This document shows, piece by piece, positions 17,253 through 22,656 of a stretch of DNA of 64,000 nt (position 1 is its first letter; every line of letters begins with the position of its first letter). Under the pieces are notes generated by a model. The model ran no database searches. It had not been told where the DNA came from and saw only the letters and a list, made by a program, of their open reading frames with translations. Source of the DNA: a virus. Where the stretch lies: positions 1 through 64,000 of IMG/VR virus record IMGVR_UViG_3300032322_002674; one strand, 5' to 3'. A program made the position numbers and the translations under genes.

Positions 17253-18710
17253 ATGGGATTTTACAGAACATATTTTACAAAGAATAATACAATACTTAGA
17301 AATCGTTTGGTTAATACTGCAAAAAACCAAGTAACAGAATTATATTACGGTAAAGATGTTCCTATATTTTCAGGTAATACAAGTGGTTTTAGTGGAACAA
17401 CAGATTTTTCCAGATTCTTATTTCAGTTTGATGTAACTGAATTAAGGGAAAAATATATGGATAAAACCATCATATCTTCCACCACAATCACTCATAAACT
17501 AAAAATGACTAATACATCATCTTTTGATAGAAGTCTCTTAGGAAAACCGTTTAAAGACTATTTTAGAGCAACATCATTTGATTTAATTCTTTTTAGAATA
17601 CCAGAATCTTGGGATGAAGGTGTTGGATATGATTATAATAATAGAAATTCAATTAATTTCCAAACAAATGAAACTTTTTTATTGGGTCCATCAAATTTCA
17701 TAGAAAGGGGAACAAACCAAAATTGGACATTAACTGGTGCAGTTGGTGGTAATCCAACAATATTAAGGGAACAACATTTTGATAATGGTGATGAAAATCT
17801 TGAAATGGATATTACAGATATTGTAAATGATTTAATTACTGGAACAACCGAAAATTATGGTTTTGGTATTGCATTTAGAAGTGATTATGAAAGATTAGTT
17901 ACTGATGAAAAATATTATGTTGGATTTTTCACAAAATATACACAAACACTTTTTGAACCACATATAGAAACAGTTTGGGATGATACTGTACTTGATGATA
18001 GAAACAAATTTTATCAAAACAAATTAAATCGTCTTTATCTTTATGCAAATATTGGTGGAAATTATGAAAATATTGAAATAGGTCAGGTTAAAATATATGA
18101 TAATGAAGGTAATGTTTTTAGAACATTTTCATCCCAACAAATAAAACAATCAACCAAAGGTGTTTATTATGTTGAATTTAGTGTTTTAGATACTGATTCA
18201 GAATGTCAGGTTAATTTTATTGATGTATGGAAAGATATATACTATAATGGTGTAAAACAACCTGATGTGCAAATGTATTTTACAATACAACCAAATACAA
18301 AATTCTTTTATATAAATAATAATGATAAATTACCAACCAATTATTCAATATCATTAAATGGTATTAAAAAAGATGAAACAATTTTAAGGGGTGATATTAG
18401 AAGAATTACAGTTTTTGCAAAAAAAGATTTTGAAAAAAATAATGAAGTTATTGATGGATTAAAATGGAGAATATATTTAAAACAAGGTACAGAAGAAATA
18501 CCTATAACAAATTGGTTAGATGTTAATAGGGGTTATACTTATAATTGGTTTGAATTAGATACCAGTTTTTTATTACCAACGATTTATTATTTGGATATTA
18601 AATTAGAAACAGGAAATTATGTTAAAACCTATAATGAAACTTTAAAATTCTTTGTTGTTGGTGTTGATGATAAATTTAATTTATTAACTGCAAGGGATTA
18701 TCTTGGTTAA
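17253..18710 (+). CDS. Putative baseplate or tail structural protein, 485 aa
   Basis: Beta-rich throughout, with many aromatic and Asn/Asp turns, no membrane segments and no catalytic motif. Segments such as F-S-R-F-L-F-Q-F-D and S-F-D-L-I-L-F-R-I-P look like jelly-roll strands of virion proteins. It has its own ATATTTAT element and stands alone on the plus strand. Its TAA shares a TTAA with the stop of the converging integrase gene. Exact structural role unknown. Confidence 0.65.
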   Translation: MGFYRTYFTKNNTILRNRLVNTAKNQVTELYYGKDVPIFSGNTSGFSGTTDFSRFLFQFDVTELREKYMDKTIISSTTITHKLKMTNTSSFDRSLLGKPFKDYFRATSFDLILFRIPESWDEGVGYDYNNRNSINFQTNETFLLGPSNFIERGTNQNWTLTGAVGGNPTILREQHFDNGDENLEMDITDIVNDLITGTTENYGFGIAFRSDYERLVTDEKYYVGFFTKYTQTLFEPHIETVWDDTVLDDRNKFYQNKLNRLYLYANIGGNYENIEIGQVKIYDNEGNVFRTFSSQQIKQSTKGVYYVEFSVLDTDSECQVNFIDVWKDIYYNGVKQPDVQMYFTIQPNTKFFYINNNDKLPTNYSISLNGIKKDETILRGDIRRITVFAKKDFEKNNEVIDGLKWRIYLKQGTEEIPITNWLDVNRGYTYNWFELDTSFLLPTIYYLDIKLETGNYVKTYNETLKFFVVGVDDKFNLLTARDYLG

Positions 18711-19507
18711 ATTGGTAATTTAACTTTTGAAAGAATTTTATTTGAAATATGAGTATATATTTCGGTAGTTTTTACATTTGAATGTCCTGCGATATTAGAT
18801 ATTATTTTTAAATCTGTTCCTGTTTCTAAAAGAGTTGTAAAACATGAATGACGCAGATTATGAATTGATGTTTTATAATCAATATATTTTTTATATATTT
18901 GTTGACAAGATTTTATAGAATATTTTCCTGAATTTTGTCCATTAAATAAATAAACTTTTGGTTTGTATATTTTATAATAATCACGAAGAAGATTTAAAAT
19001 ATTTTCTGATAATGGTACAATTCTATCTTTTTTTCCTTTTGAGTTTAATATATTTATAATCATTCTTTTTGAATCAATATCTTCGATTTTTAAGTTTACT
19101 ATTTCTGAAACTCTTAAACCTACTGAAAAACATAAAGATAATATTGTTTTATGTTTTAAGTTTTTTATATTATTAATTTTTTTAATAATTGTTTCTGAAT
19201 CAATTACTTTAGGTAATTTCTTTTCTTTTAAAGGTCGAATAAAAGAAATTTTATCATATTTTTTATTTAGGACTTCTTTATATAAAAATTTTAGGGAACT
19301 GATTATTTGATTTTGTTGTGAAGATGAAGAATAATTGTAATTTGTAACGTATTCTTGGAAATCAGAAGAATTTAATCTTGTAAATGATTTATTCTGTTTT
19401 TTAAAAAATTCACAAATATAATGTAAATAAATATTTTTAGTATTTTCAGAAAAACCCTTTAATTTCAATTTTTGGACACAAATTTCGTAATAGTTAGTTT
19501 CTTTCAT
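18707..19507 (-). CDS. Tyrosine recombinase/integrase (XerC/D-like)
   Basis: 266 aa from ATG 19507; an upstream in-frame TTG at 19519 is less likely. All catalytic positions are present: Arg in VGLRVSE, Lys in the SKGKKD hairpin, H-x-x-R in IHNLRHS, His in AGHSN and the nucleophile Tyr in EIYTH. It has an N-terminal SAM-like core-binding domain and is the short form common in Bacteroidota. The extra helix insert of integron integrases before HxxR is absent. It lies 0.9 kb from the cassette-like repeats at 20.3-21.5 kb and could act on them, or on genome integration or dimer resolution. Confidence 0.93.
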   Translation of the reverse strand: MKETNYYEICVQKLKLKGFSENTKNIYLHYICEFFKKQNKSFTRLNSSDFQEYVTNYNYSSSSQQNQIISSLKFLYKEVLNKKYDKISFIRPLKEKKLPKVIDSETIIKKINNIKNLKHKTILSLCFSVGLRVSEIVNLKIEDIDSKRMIINILNSKGKKDRIVPLSENILNLLRDYYKIYKPKVYLFNGQNSGKYSIKSCQQIYKKYIDYKTSIHNLRHSCFTTLLETGTDLKIISNIAGHSNVKTTEIYTHISNKILSKVKLPI

Positions 19508-19514
19508 ATTGAAA

Positions 19515-19600
19515 ATCAATTAGTTATGGGTAGTTAGATATATACAATAGTTAGTTGCAATTGCTACATTTGTTTTTAAATTAAACATTTGTGTAAACAT
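19515..19600. other. Candidate recombinase binding or att region
   Basis: Directly upstream of the integrase gene lie two near copies of CAATTAGTTA/CAATAGTTAG, a palindromic GCAATTGC and a direct repeat TAAACATTT. Short repeats beside a tyrosine recombinase often mark arm or core sites. No second att copy is visible, so this is only a candidate. Confidence 0.3.
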
Positions 19601-19668
19601 TTTTATTCTTTTTTTTGCCTACACACTACAAAAATATAAAAATTTTTAGTAAAAAACAATTTTTTAAT

Positions 19669-19676
19669 ATATTTAT
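19669..19676 (+). promoter_or_regulatory. Late-promoter-like ATATTTAT
   Basis: Exact ATATTTAT about 21 bases before the ATG at 19698, a longer distance than most. Confidence 0.5.
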
Positions 19677-19697
19677 ATAAAAATAAAACAATTTTAT

Positions 19698-20180
19698 ATG
19701 AGAACAACAAAAATTACTTTAAATGAATTACGTAGCTTAATAAAACAGATTATTAAGGAAGAAAGAATGCTGAATGAATCCCTAAATAAAGATATTAGGG
19801 AATTTGGTAAGGATTTAGGAAAATATTTAACAAATTCTGGTTTTAAAGTTAAATTTATGAGTGGTAGAATGTCTGATGAAGATATGAAGCAAATAAAAAC
19901 GAACACAAATCTTGTGGGTTTAGTGTTAGACCAAAATGATTCACAACAATCCTTGTACATGCACTTCAATCCAAAAGACTTAAACAATATAGAAAAAATA
20001 GTTGATAAATTTCAATTATCACCATATAGAGGTAAAGTTATGTCTAAAGGTTGGACAAATAAACAAGTTGTTGGTGCATTAAATCCTGGAGATATTTTTA
20101 AGTGGGATAGTCAAAAGGATAGTGGTCTATATCAATTTTTTAGACTAAAAAAGGTTGACAGTAAAGTTTCCAATGTGTAA
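19698..20180 (+). CDS. Putative virion protein with N-terminal amphipathic leader, 160 aa
   Basis: Residues 6-23 (LNELRSLIKQIIKEE) form an amphipathic helix that resembles leaders on other late genes here (37355-38110, 38315-38746). It is followed by L-N-E-S, a possible I/L-x-E cleavage site. The remainder is a small alpha/beta domain of unknown function. With an ATATTTAT promoter it is likely packaged or capsid-related. Confidence 0.6.
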   Translation: MRTTKITLNELRSLIKQIIKEERMLNESLNKDIREFGKDLGKYLTNSGFKVKFMSGRMSDEDMKQIKTNTNLVGLVLDQNDSQQSLYMHFNPKDLNNIEKIVDKFQLSPYRGKVMSKGWTNKQVVGALNPGDIFKWDSQKDSGLYQFFRLKKVDSKVSNV

Positions 20181-20348
20181 CCCCAACACACAAAATTAAT
20201 AAAAAAATTTGGAAAAAAAACAACAGCCAGTTAGTGAAAGTTTAAGATTAAGAAATTATTTTAAATAATCCACCACACAAAAAGAATAAAAATGTCTTAG
20301 TGCTTTGATTGGAGTTCCGTAGTAAATAATCCGCAACTACAACTAACA

Positions 20349-20394
20349 GCGTGTATAAAACATTAAAACGATTTTATACACGCAAAACGTTATG
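20349..20394. repeat. attC-like hairpin and repeat 1
   Basis: Perfect 12-base inverted repeat GCGTGTATAAAA (20349-20360) and TTTTATACACGC (20372-20383) with an 11-base loop, flanked by CTAAC on the left and AAAACGTTATG on the right. TAAC and GTTA pair as the outer arms. The shape of an imperfect palindrome with AAC/GTT ends is that of an integron attC site. Core GCAAAACGTTATG spans 20382-20394. Confidence 0.55.
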
Positions 20395-20414
20395 CGAAAA
20401 TTTGCTTACCACCC

Positions 20415-20741
20415 TCAATACTCCGAATGAACTTTAGGATTGATTTTTTCAATTTCTGCATACGCTTCTTCAAACTCTTTTGTAATGTGTGGCTTTATTG
20501 GCATCTGTTTCGCTATGTAAGCCATACACGCATCTATTCCTTTCCAACTATATTTTTTGTAAATAGGTAGCACCCATTCCAAATCTTGTGCATCTATCAA
20601 TACCATATCTGCACACGCATAATTGAAAAAATCATTGGCGTTCATAGCTATTCCAAATGAGCCTTTAATCAGCCCACGCAAATCATCGCATAACAGCACA
20701 TTGGCGTTATTGCTTTCCGTTTTCAAATTATCATTTTCCAT
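20415..20741 (-). CDS. Cassette-borne hypothetical protein, 108 aa
   Basis: Base and codon use differ from the phage genes: higher G+C, more GCA/GCC and CGC. It reads like a bacterial chromosomal gene with an A-D-M-V-L-I and D-L-E-W-V-L-P segment. It sits alone between two GCAAAACGTTATG repeats with its 3' end towards repeat 1, the arrangement of a one-gene cassette. Likely acquired from a Bacteroidota host or integron. Function unknown. Confidence 0.6.
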   Translation of the reverse strand: MENDNLKTESNNANVLLCDDLRGLIKGSFGIAMNANDFFNYACADMVLIDAQDLEWVLPIYKKYSWKGIDACMAYIAKQMPIKPHITKEFEEAYAEIEKINPKVHSEY

Positions 20742-20794
20742 ATTATTAAATTTAGTGTTTCAATTAAGCATCTTTGTGGCAACAACGCCAGTCT

Positions 20795-20807
20795 GCAAAA
20801 CGTTATG
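20795..20807. repeat. Cassette repeat 2, GCAAAACGTTATG
   Basis: Identical to the 13-base core of repeat 1, 413 bases away. A short TGGC/GCCA stem lies just left of it. The next cassette's stop codon follows within six bases. Confidence 0.6.
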
Positions 20808-20812
20808 TTTAA

Positions 20813-21059
20813 TTAAAAATTATTACGTGGGAAGTACTCCAACCCAGTTTCACTTATCATTATATTGTCAACAAATTTTATATCAACTTCTTCGTATTGT
20901 AACTCACCATTATAATACCTTGATATATGTAGTTTTTCACCTGTTCCATATCTACATTCAACTGATGAAGTATCATCGTCCCATGTAGGACACCAATCAG
21001 GTATTTTAATTTTACTGGCTTTCTGCTTCGTTTGAAAGTTTTTTGTTTAAATTATCCAT
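20813..21059 (-). pseudogene. Frameshifted cassette gene, about 83 codons
   Basis: ATG at 21059 opens MDNLNKKLSNEAES and stops after 15 codons. Another frame, with no start codon of its own, continues as K-I-K-I-P-D-W-C-P-T-W-D-D-D through to TAA at 20813. Removing one A from the A6 run after codon 5 joins them into one protein of about 80 residues. So this is either a one-base insertion or a sequencing error in a homopolymer. It lies between repeats 2 and 3. Confidence 0.5.
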
Positions 21060-21108
21060 TGTTTTTCGTATTAAGTTTTGAGGTATTAATCAGCCACCTC
21101 GTTTAGCT

Positions 21109-21121
21109 GCCAAACGTTATG
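21109..21121. repeat. Cassette repeat 3, GCCAAACGTTATG
   Basis: Matches repeats 1 and 2 at 12 of 13 bases. Short stems GAGGT/ACCTC and CAGC/GCTG lie to its left. It overlaps the stop codon of the 109-aa gene. Confidence 0.55.
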
Positions 21122-21446
21122 AAACATTCTTCATCCTTCTATTGATGTTCGCTAAAATCATATCATACTCGATAAATATGACATCACCTTCTCGTTCATC
21201 ACTTTCTTTATATCTACTCGGTTTGTAAAAATCTCTAACCATTTGTTTAGCTTCGACATATTTACCTTCGTTTAATAATGGTTCAATTTGTTCTGATATG
21301 ATTTTAGCTAATTTCTCACCCATAACATCAATATATCTATAATATTCCAATGAACGTTTCATAACATCAGATATATTCAAGTTTTCTGATTCGGTTAATT
21401 TAAACTTGTTAAATTTGTCAATGTGTTGTCTCATTTCTTTACTCAT
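21117..21446 (-). CDS. Hypothetical protein, 109 aa
   Basis: Helical, charged protein beginning M-S-K-E-M-R-Q-H-I-D-K-F-N-K-F-K, a leader style seen in marine phage proteins. No domain recognised. Its TAA lies inside repeat 3, so it may be the third cassette gene, or the phage gene into which the cassettes were inserted. Confidence 0.55.
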   Translation of the reverse strand: MSKEMRQHIDKFNKFKLTESENLNISDVMKRSLEYYRYIDVMGEKLAKIISEQIEPLLNEGKYVEAKQMVRDFYKPSRYKESDEREGDVIFIEYDMILANINRRMKNVS

Positions 21447-21468
21447 AATTTTCTTTTATAAGAAAAAA

Positions 21469-21618
21469 CTACATATATCTGTGTCCGTTATGTTCAATTT
21501 TTAAAAAATTATGAGTTTCTATTATTAAATTCTTCTGAACTAATTCTATCGTGGTAGGTATGGACATCACCACAATTACTACCGCATAATACTCTTTTTT
21601 AAGTGCTTCGTATTTCAT
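21469..21618 (-). CDS. Small hypothetical protein, 49 aa
   Basis: ATG 21618 to TAG 21469, starting MKYEALKKEYYAVVIVVMS, one hydrophobic segment at 11-18. The core CGTTATG at 21486-21492, a partial fourth cassette repeat, lies in its C-terminal codons. Preceded by the 20-base element at 21637-21656, which supports expression. Confidence 0.4.
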   Translation of the reverse strand: MKYEALKKEYYAVVIVVMSIPTTIELVQKNLIIETHNFLKIEHNGHRYM

Positions 21619-21918: not shown

Positions 21919-22656
21919 CTAATGCAAAATTTCATAATCCCTTTCTTCTATATATCCTGTTTTAAAATATTGATAAACATCCTTATAATATTTTAATGAA
22001 TCTCTTATTTGTTTGGTATTCAGTTCAGTCATAGTTCTGATATATTCAAATATTAAATTTTTATTATATTTATTATTTCTTAAAAAATATTCTTGTATTT
22101 GATACCAGTTATCAAAAATATCAACAAGTGCCAAACCAACTTTTAATTCTTCTTTTGTCATATTTTTTTCATTTTCCTCAATTTTATCAGAAATCACAAC
22201 AGATAAATTTTTAAAAACCTCAATAATTAATTCATTATAATTTAAATTTAAAGTTTCAGTTTGTAAATCCTTTCTATCATTTTCCATTGTTTCAATATTG
22301 GATGGTGAAATATCTTCATAAGATGCATTAGTTTTAGTATTTTTCTTTGATTTATTAATTTGTACAATTAAATGTCTTTTAATGATTGTTCCAAAATAAG
22401 AATATGATTTTTTATTTTTTTCAGGTTTAAATTTATCCATTTTTGTTACTAAAAAAGATAAAACATCATTATGAGTATCATCATAATTTAAATCTGGACG
22501 ATATAGTTTATATCTTCTTATTATTGAATCGGTCATTTTTTTAAGAGGATTTTTTAAATGTTTATTAAAAATACTATTTCTTTCCTCTTGTGAATTACTT
22601 TCTAAGTACCTTACTACTGCATCCTCTTGTTCTTTACCCCAATATCCTTTTGCCAT
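21919..22656 (-). CDS. Late-transcription sigma factor, gp55-like
   Basis: 245 aa (T4 gp55 is 185). Residues 55-105 match sigma region 2 as seen in phage late sigma factors: an acidic helix around 58-66, then S-Y-S-Y-F-G-T-I-I-K-R-H near 84-95 and a basic stretch N-K-S-K-K-N. Such proteins bind host core RNA polymerase and read a short -10-like element without a -35. The rest is helical and lineage specific. It most likely directs transcription from the ATATTTAT elements before virion genes. Uses TAG as stop, which shows that the standard code applies. Confidence 0.72.
   Translation of the reverse strand: MAKGYWGKEQEDAVVRYLESNSQEERNSIFNKHLKNPLKKMTDSIIRRYKLYRPDLNYDDTHNDVLSFLVTKMDKFKPEKNKKSYSYFGTIIKRHLIVQINKSKKNTKTNASYEDISPSNIETMENDRKDLQTETLNLNYNELIIEVFKNLSVVISDKIEENEKNMTKEELKVGLALVDIFDNWYQIQEYFLRNNKYNKNLIFEYIRTMTELNTKQIRDSLKYYKDVYQYFKTGYIEERDYEILH

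Follow-up and report, generated by a model that had tools for sequence, protein, structure and literature searches.

A short run of small genes and repeats beside a tyrosine recombinase gene in a viral genome raises the question of whether the run is an integron-like cassette array, and whether the neighbouring enzyme acts on it. In this study, we analyzed a window of 64,000 nucleotides (the whole stretch of DNA under analysis), which is bases 1-64000 of an IMG/VR record of 173,457 b. The parent record has a terminase large-subunit match above cut-off at 88,894-89,616, and eight of ten large window ORFs had no match in PHROGs. A sequence-only reading of the window had described a recurring 12-base core, and this was confirmed: the core is exact at 20383-20394 and 20796-20807, has one mismatch at 21110-21121, and is partial at 21486. 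The core alone is a weak signal, as 15 matches with at most two mismatches were found against 9.1 expected, and 15 were reached in 4 of 100 shuffles. The case for the repeats rests on the surrounding structure and not on the 12-mer count, and it is the structure that rules out chance repeats. Screening for tRNAs and known RNA families gave nothing notable. The protein encoded at 21919-22656 on the minus strand matches sigma-70 region 2 below threshold (E 0.024, 14.9 bits, cut-off 24) and is perhaps a phage sigma factor. The parts of the array are as follows.

21362-21490, minus strand: site 4, attC-like, with R'' TAAC at 21487-21490 and R' GTTA at 21362-21365; fold z -2.9
21117-21446, minus strand: cassette-3 gene, 109 aa, with its start inside site 4 and its stop at the TAA of the following TAAC
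21015-21119, minus strand: site 3, with R'' TAAC at 21116-21119 and the 5' arm present, the 3' arm and R' gone; fold z +0.3
20691-20805, minus strand: site 2, attC-like, with R'' TAAC at 20802-20805 and R' GTTA at 20691-20694; fold z -1.3, outer boxes paired
20415-20741, minus strand: cassette-1 gene, 108 aa, no Pfam family, full-length relatives in viral contigs only
20344-20392, minus strand: site 1, a short attC-like hairpin, with R'' TAAC at 20389-20392 and R' GTTA at 20344-20347; fold z -3.7
19555-20347, minus strand: last (recombinase-proximal) cassette, start GTTAGTTG at 20347 and end CAACTAAC at 19555
19508-19558, minus strand: attI-like site, cassette-end TAAC at 19555-19558 followed by AT-rich TATTGTATATATC, directly before the recombinase start
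18707-19507, minus strand: XerA-type tyrosine recombinase, the proposed array recombinase, with Phage_integrase and SAM_4 and without the IntI-specific insert

Three of the four repeats fold (1, 2, and 4). The stem reported for repeat 1 was found, with 12 bp and paired outer TAAC and GTTA in the DNA fold. Folding of the others held for repeat 2, whose outer arms pair, and for repeat 4, but not for repeat 3. The loss of the 3' arm of site 3 is also present in sister contig G001, which is identical in the array, and variant forms of the window array were not found. At site 3, the reading frame of cassette 2 (ATG at 21059) is interrupted. As had been claimed, genes end at the repeats: the stop of gene 3 is the TAA of the repeat's TAAC, and gene 1 stops 22 b before the TAAC of repeat 1. 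The cassette-3 gene has its start codon (21446) and initial codons within site 4, and the cassette-1 gene has its start codon (20741) and 16 codons within site 2. The site 2 block has near-identical copies in many viral contigs. Its leader and the first codons of its gene are common to many viral contigs with unrelated gene bodies, and the same was found at site 4. The odd base use noted for the first gene was reproduced (GC 0.361 in cassette-1 DNA versus 0.239 in the window). The ends of cassette 3, GTTATGAAAC and GTTTCATAAC, are complementary, and complementary R''/R' ends occur in window cassettes 1, 3, and last. The limits first given for the array were too narrow; it reaches 19555, 0.8 kb further, at the attI-like site. 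The last cassette carries an inverted gene (19698-20180, plus strand) starting MRTTKITLNELRSLIKQIIKEE. It also contains 77 b (20213-20289) that match a largely non-coding part of Flavobacterium phage immuto at 86% identity; this is the nearest isolate match of the region, and the cassette was perhaps made from phage DNA. The window array looks short and partly decayed, with sites 1, 2, and 4 apparently intact and site 3 apparently dead. The central claim of an integron-like array with attC-like architecture is upheld.

On the minus strand, each site opens with TAAC and roughly 5 unpaired bases, followed by the first arm of the stem, a middle part of varying length, and the complementary arm, and it closes with 1-2 bases and GTTA. 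Arms paired in 302 of 342 sites that were picked by the complementarity of cassette ends, regardless of arm pairing, compared with 7.7% when arms were shuffled among sites. The spacer asymmetry, 5 unpaired bases on one side and 1-2 on the other, was present in 222 of the 302 paired sites. Wobble pairs on the gene strand were G.T/T.G in 415 cases and A.C/C.A in 75, counts that are not independent because the sites are interrelated. Since G.T/T.G exceed A.C/C.A there, the gene strand is the strand whose fold is kept. With attI as the reference, the gene strand is the bottom strand, described in a passage of Qi 2023 (PMC9892861) as more recombinogenic in classic integrons. Of 299 neighbouring pairs, 226 showed full complementarity between the four variable bases after GTTA and the four that precede TAAC, at the two ends of a cassette; the remaining pairs had no match (12), one (21), two (18), or three (22). 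Perfect ends were expected in 14.8% when ends were shuffled within records. Next to the recombinase, 40 of 54 ends were perfect when the best-matching TAAC within the last 150 b was taken. These counts covered 73 of 80 recombinase loci (duplicates removed), 13 of 28 other records, and two isolates; the 13 records were hand-picked for linked arrays, G023 and G026 duplicate G019, and G004 was excluded.

To relate arrays to recombinases, seven recombinases were used as queries, giving 219 relatives in viral contigs, of which the best 80 were kept. Leaving out 12 loci with less than 600 b upstream gave 68 loci. Among these loci from the best 80 of 219 relatives, each with at least 600 b upstream, a site was present within 3 kb upstream in 62 of 68, and no site was detected within 3 kb in the other 6. 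Around the best 80 of the 219, 310 candidate sites lay upstream on the recombinase strand and 4 on the opposite strand (400,780 b), compared with 8 and 0 by strand downstream (579,307 b). A TAAC+TATA site preceded the recombinase in 71 of these best 80 loci. The integron-integrase model matched in 8 of 29 records, never above cut-off, and in all eight the array was upstream on the same strand. In the phage contig G017 (169,658 b), 44 candidate sites are spread over 37 kb, and the array stops 0.8 kb short of a recombinase of this kind; in the window the recombinase is 0.8 kb, one cassette, from the last site. These results indicate that the recombinase is not incidental, as its family sits at array ends. 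A putative integron-like system is recurrent in many large phages of Bacteroidota-type bacteria.

The recombinase had been described as of Xer and not IntI type, and our comparisons agree: the best NCBIfam model is XerA-type, the score is below the integron-integrase cut-off, and the closest models are XerA, XerD, and XerC. For three phage proteins, NF040815 gave 165.0 (window), 206.1, and 192.3 bits, all under the curated cut-off of 220. TIGR02249 gave these three 149-176 bits against a cut-off of 265, with the match split around the IntI insert. The catalytic residues R, K, H, R, H, and Y are conserved in an alignment of seven recombinase sequences. Aligned with IntI1 and IntI2, the phage, Flagellimonas, and G313 enzymes lack the IntI insert before the HxxR motif. 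An additional domain near patch III defines IntI, according to a passage of Ghaly 2022 (PMC9668308). An AlphaFold2 model of the recombinase (pLDDT 88.1) matched IntI 2a3v with Z 20.1 (rmsd 4.2, 258 aligned) and, about equally, XerA 5hxy with Z 20.0 (rmsd 14.0, 255 aligned). In a recombinase tree that took in one third of the larger clade, most phage array enzymes formed one group and those of G004, G017, and G027 a second. The integrases of the temperate phages Ingeline and Freya fell beside the first group, and several deeper forks were weak. The Cellulophaga Ingeline integrase is a relative of the recombinase without an array, and no array of this type was found around the Ingeline and Freya integrases in the stretches fetched. 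Among isolates of the Polaribacter phage Freya (L226 Freya_1, L228 Freya_9), the distance between the record start and the integrase gene increases with genome length, from 50 to about 3,840 b. A large hairpin ending in CCTATAAC lies just before the Freya integrase and is perhaps a related insertion site.

The main ORF pointed toward the recombinase in 233 of 248 linked units from 61 records, with 3 opposite and 12 ambiguous. Of these 233 genes, 84 have their start inside a site; 59 use the TAA of the following TAAC as their stop, and 163 end near it. Starts inside sites were seen in 79 of 124 units with sites of at least 95 b and in 5 of 109 with shorter sites. Many cassette proteins begin with a shared sequence resembling MSKEMRxxIDxFxxxLxEN, whose codons lie within the site or directly after it (window 21446; L149, L153, L179, L184, L199, G012, G017). 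A loose motif for a possible virion-targeting N-terminus matched 22 of 239 cassette proteins compared with 18 of 420 control windows. In G017, Pfam matches identified N6/N4 methylases in 13 of 35 cassette proteins, plus one MT-A70 and one Dam, so that methyltransferases make up 15 of 35 in this 37-kb array if all matches are different proteins. The other arrays gave 6 methylase matches in 63 proteins scanned, out of 146 cassette proteins listed. Small phage genes seem to make up the cargo, joined in larger arrays by DNA methyltransferases, which would shield the phage from host restriction. Some LMO9 phages plate less on LMO6, potentially via methyltransferase differences, as a passage of Nilsson 2020 (PMC7077304) puts it; its main text uses neither "integron" nor "cassette". 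We infer that the plating difference may be tied to cassette turnover.

Gain and loss of cassettes was examined by comparing relatives; identical cassette content would have counted against the sequence-only reading, and the content was found to differ. Sixteen contig pairs are at least 90% identical over 850 b of attI and recombinase. In eight, the upstream sequence differs, with the break 0-2 b from TAAC; these eight are 99.5-100% identical over attI and recombinase and carry unrelated cassettes beyond TAAC. In the other eight, the upstream sequence is the same too. Seven Flavobacterium phage isolates (hosts LMO6/LMO9) have 10 to 15 units each, written here with one letter per cassette.

mumin: ABCDEFKHLJ
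filifjonk: ABCDEFKHLMNOJP
mymlan: ABCDEFGHIJ
tooticki: ABCDEFGHLQ
sniff: BCGDEFRSTUVWJX
snork: BCGDEFRTUVWJX
hemulen: ABCYZDEFRTUVWab

Cassette S (439 b) lies between R and T in sniff and is missing from snork, the flanks being identical over 5310 and 4154 bases, and filifjonk differs from mumin by a 1581-b insert that is three cassettes. The breaks in the isolates fall exactly at TAAC with about 5-7 bases shared, which is too little for homologous exchange. The site moves with the gene downstream of it, as shown by sniff/snork, mumin/filifjonk, and several partial body matches. A unit made of a gene and the site following it is ruled out by the same two isolate comparisons. Of four informative near-full-length body pairs, two support a site with its downstream gene and the other two share neither site. 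The simple unit does not predict that cassette body G is found beside two distinct sites, or that the G004/G009 pair has a common body with neither site in common. We also considered a swapping of N-termini by recombination, giving a constant N-terminus and a variable body; it is countered by bodies being linked to their own upstream site, although sites have changed in a small number of pairs. No tyrosine recombinase was found in the seven Flavobacterium isolates or in P12002L (0 of 8), and their arrays are therefore served in trans or are relics. Some arrays, then, move in trans or by homologous recombination.

The sequence-only reading had also suggested capture of cassettes from bacteria. 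Similar bacterial sites do exist, but they are rare, the arrays are mostly phage-borne, and capture from bacteria is not required. The proposed search of Bacteroidota genomes gave two convincing genomes, a rare occurrence (2 of 395, with one pattern), to which two plasmids are added. Among these 395 genomes of the phylum, the site pattern matched 7 compared with 5 for a reversed control pattern, and paired sites were present in 2 of the 7. The exact site block was found in 21 viral stretches and in 1 of the bacterial/archaeal collection, the latter without the rest of the site. A scan of this collection found no relative of the cassette-1 protein, and plasmids gave no match to it. Genome G313 from this phylum search (L131, G313:C8:60001-80000) contains an array of four such sites with complementary cassette ends. 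There, the site follows the genes in the classic order, AbiEi, Fic, caspase-like, and GmrSD-like genes are nearby, and the recombinase beside the array has 484 aa with an extra N-terminal part. The Flagellimonas marinaquae plasmid NZ_CP092416 (L221 7560-9790) carries an erm(F) unit with ends GTTATGCGG and CCGCATAAC directly before xerA. The Arenibacter plasmid NZ_CP022516 (L229) has the Flagellimonas recombinase and end site (matching from the AAC of TAAC) with a different cassette.

We propose that the array very probably belongs to a phage-borne integron-like system, in which the XerA-type recombinase at the array end joins the attI-like site and folded attC-like sites. At the level of sequence, the comparisons show cassette units with complementary ends, exact gain and loss at TAAC, cassette replacement at attI, a fixed place and orientation beside one recombinase family, and conserved arm pairing. 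The recombinase encoded at the array end would act on the double-stranded attI-like site beside its own gene. Its attC-like partner sites would fold from one DNA strand, with the folded gene strand as the substrate. A cassette would be one site and one gene, entering or leaving by recombination at TAAC, and circles may serve as intermediates. Weighing against the proposal are the isolates with sites and no tyrosine recombinase, the bodies found with differing sites, the 6 recombinase loci in which no site was detected within 3 kb, and, in the window, the unfolded site 3 and the sameness of the array in G001.

The array could instead be a passive CALIN derived from bacterial integrons and moved, if at all, by a host IntI, with the neighbouring recombinase serving phage integration. 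Passages of Qi 2023 (PMC9892861) report CALINs in virulent phages and recombination by IntI1 of five of six phage attC sites, one from Polaribacter phage P12002L, which carries sites of the present type, the tested one not necessarily among them. The Flavobacterium isolates, having no recombinase, fit the CALIN definition. We regard this origin as unlikely because the recombinase family is tied to arrays by position and strand, a common attI-like site switches cassettes, the site block is enriched in phage and not in bacteria, and the window recombinase is one cassette from the last site. It is quite improbable that the hairpins are regulatory repeats, such as terminators or leaders of small phage genes, at which homologous recombination produced the cassette differences. 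Start codons and leaders often inside sites (84 of 233) and bodies with different sites would suit such a role, but complementarity between the two ends of one cassette is not expected from it, the few bases shared at the TAAC breaks are too short for homologous exchange, and the recombinase linkage is fixed. The enzyme might also be an ordinary phage integrase, or a Xer-like dimer-resolution enzyme, with one attachment site and an array nearby by coincidence, as its XerA, XerD, and XerC models and the array-free Ingeline relative would allow. A temperate-phage integrase would use a single attachment site to insert the phage into the host chromosome; what was observed at the site adjoining this recombinase is variable cassettes. 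Array sites in 62 of 68 family loci, nearly all in one orientation, make this coincidence highly improbable.

If the phage-borne integron-like system is real, virulent phages would own a gene-capture machine. This would explain the fast turnover of methyltransferase genes in Flavobacterium phages that plate differently on related hosts, and integron-type recombination would be possible without the IntI-specific domain. Searches requiring the IntI domain would miss such systems, and erm(F) on one plasmid relative suggests that the same kind of system may move resistance in Bacteroidota. We lean slightly toward a broader view, in which large Bacteroidota phages have a second class of integron with a XerA-type recombinase lacking the IntI domain, single-stranded folded sites, and inverted genes whose protein start comes from the site. 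During infection, phages would use it to store and exchange genes for methyltransferases and other small effectors, and it may be a pre-IntI or an independent origin of integrons.

The phage arrays resemble integrons such as class 1 and the Vibrio superintegron in their tandem single-gene cassettes, in complementary outer boxes with a folded stem, and in an insertion site beside a tyrosine recombinase gene that points away from the array. As in integrons, a cassette viewed from attI is a body followed by a site. Integron genes read away from attI and then into their attC, whereas phage-array genes run toward attI and have the site at their 5' end, where it often contains the start codon. The integron Pc promoter beside attI drives the cassettes and would not serve genes reading toward attI. 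The central spacers of integron attC sites are about equal in length on both sides; those of the phage sites are 5 versus 1-2 bases. Unlike integrons, the system is phage-borne and its recombinase has no IntI-specific additional domain. NF040815 ('site-specific tyrosine recombinase/integron integrase') makes XerA recombinases the best sequence model, and the fold is near both XerA and IntI, but the score is below the curated cut-off and the enzymes are linked to cassette arrays, not to a single dif-like site. The G313, Flagellimonas, and Arenibacter systems have the same site type and complementary cassette ends, and the G313 and Flagellimonas recombinases also lack the IntI insert. They differ from the phage arrays in the classic gene orientation and defence-like cargo of G313 and in the erm(F) of Flagellimonas. 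In the literature searched, which had bioRxiv outside its scope and included few subscription papers, no description of a phage-encoded integron without IntI was found. A passage on IntegronFinder 2.0 mentions only In0 in Bacteroidetes earlier and then one complete integron, in Salinibacter. Phage attC clusters and IntI1 activity on phage attC are already known from the sections of Qi 2023 (PMC9892861) cited above, and the present arrays resemble those CALINs: in both, virulent phages carry attC sites and the cargo includes methyltransferases. Unlike a CALIN, the window array adjoins an integrase, a link that is family-wide; the virulent phages in those sections have neither their own integrase nor a dedicated attI, and both are present here.
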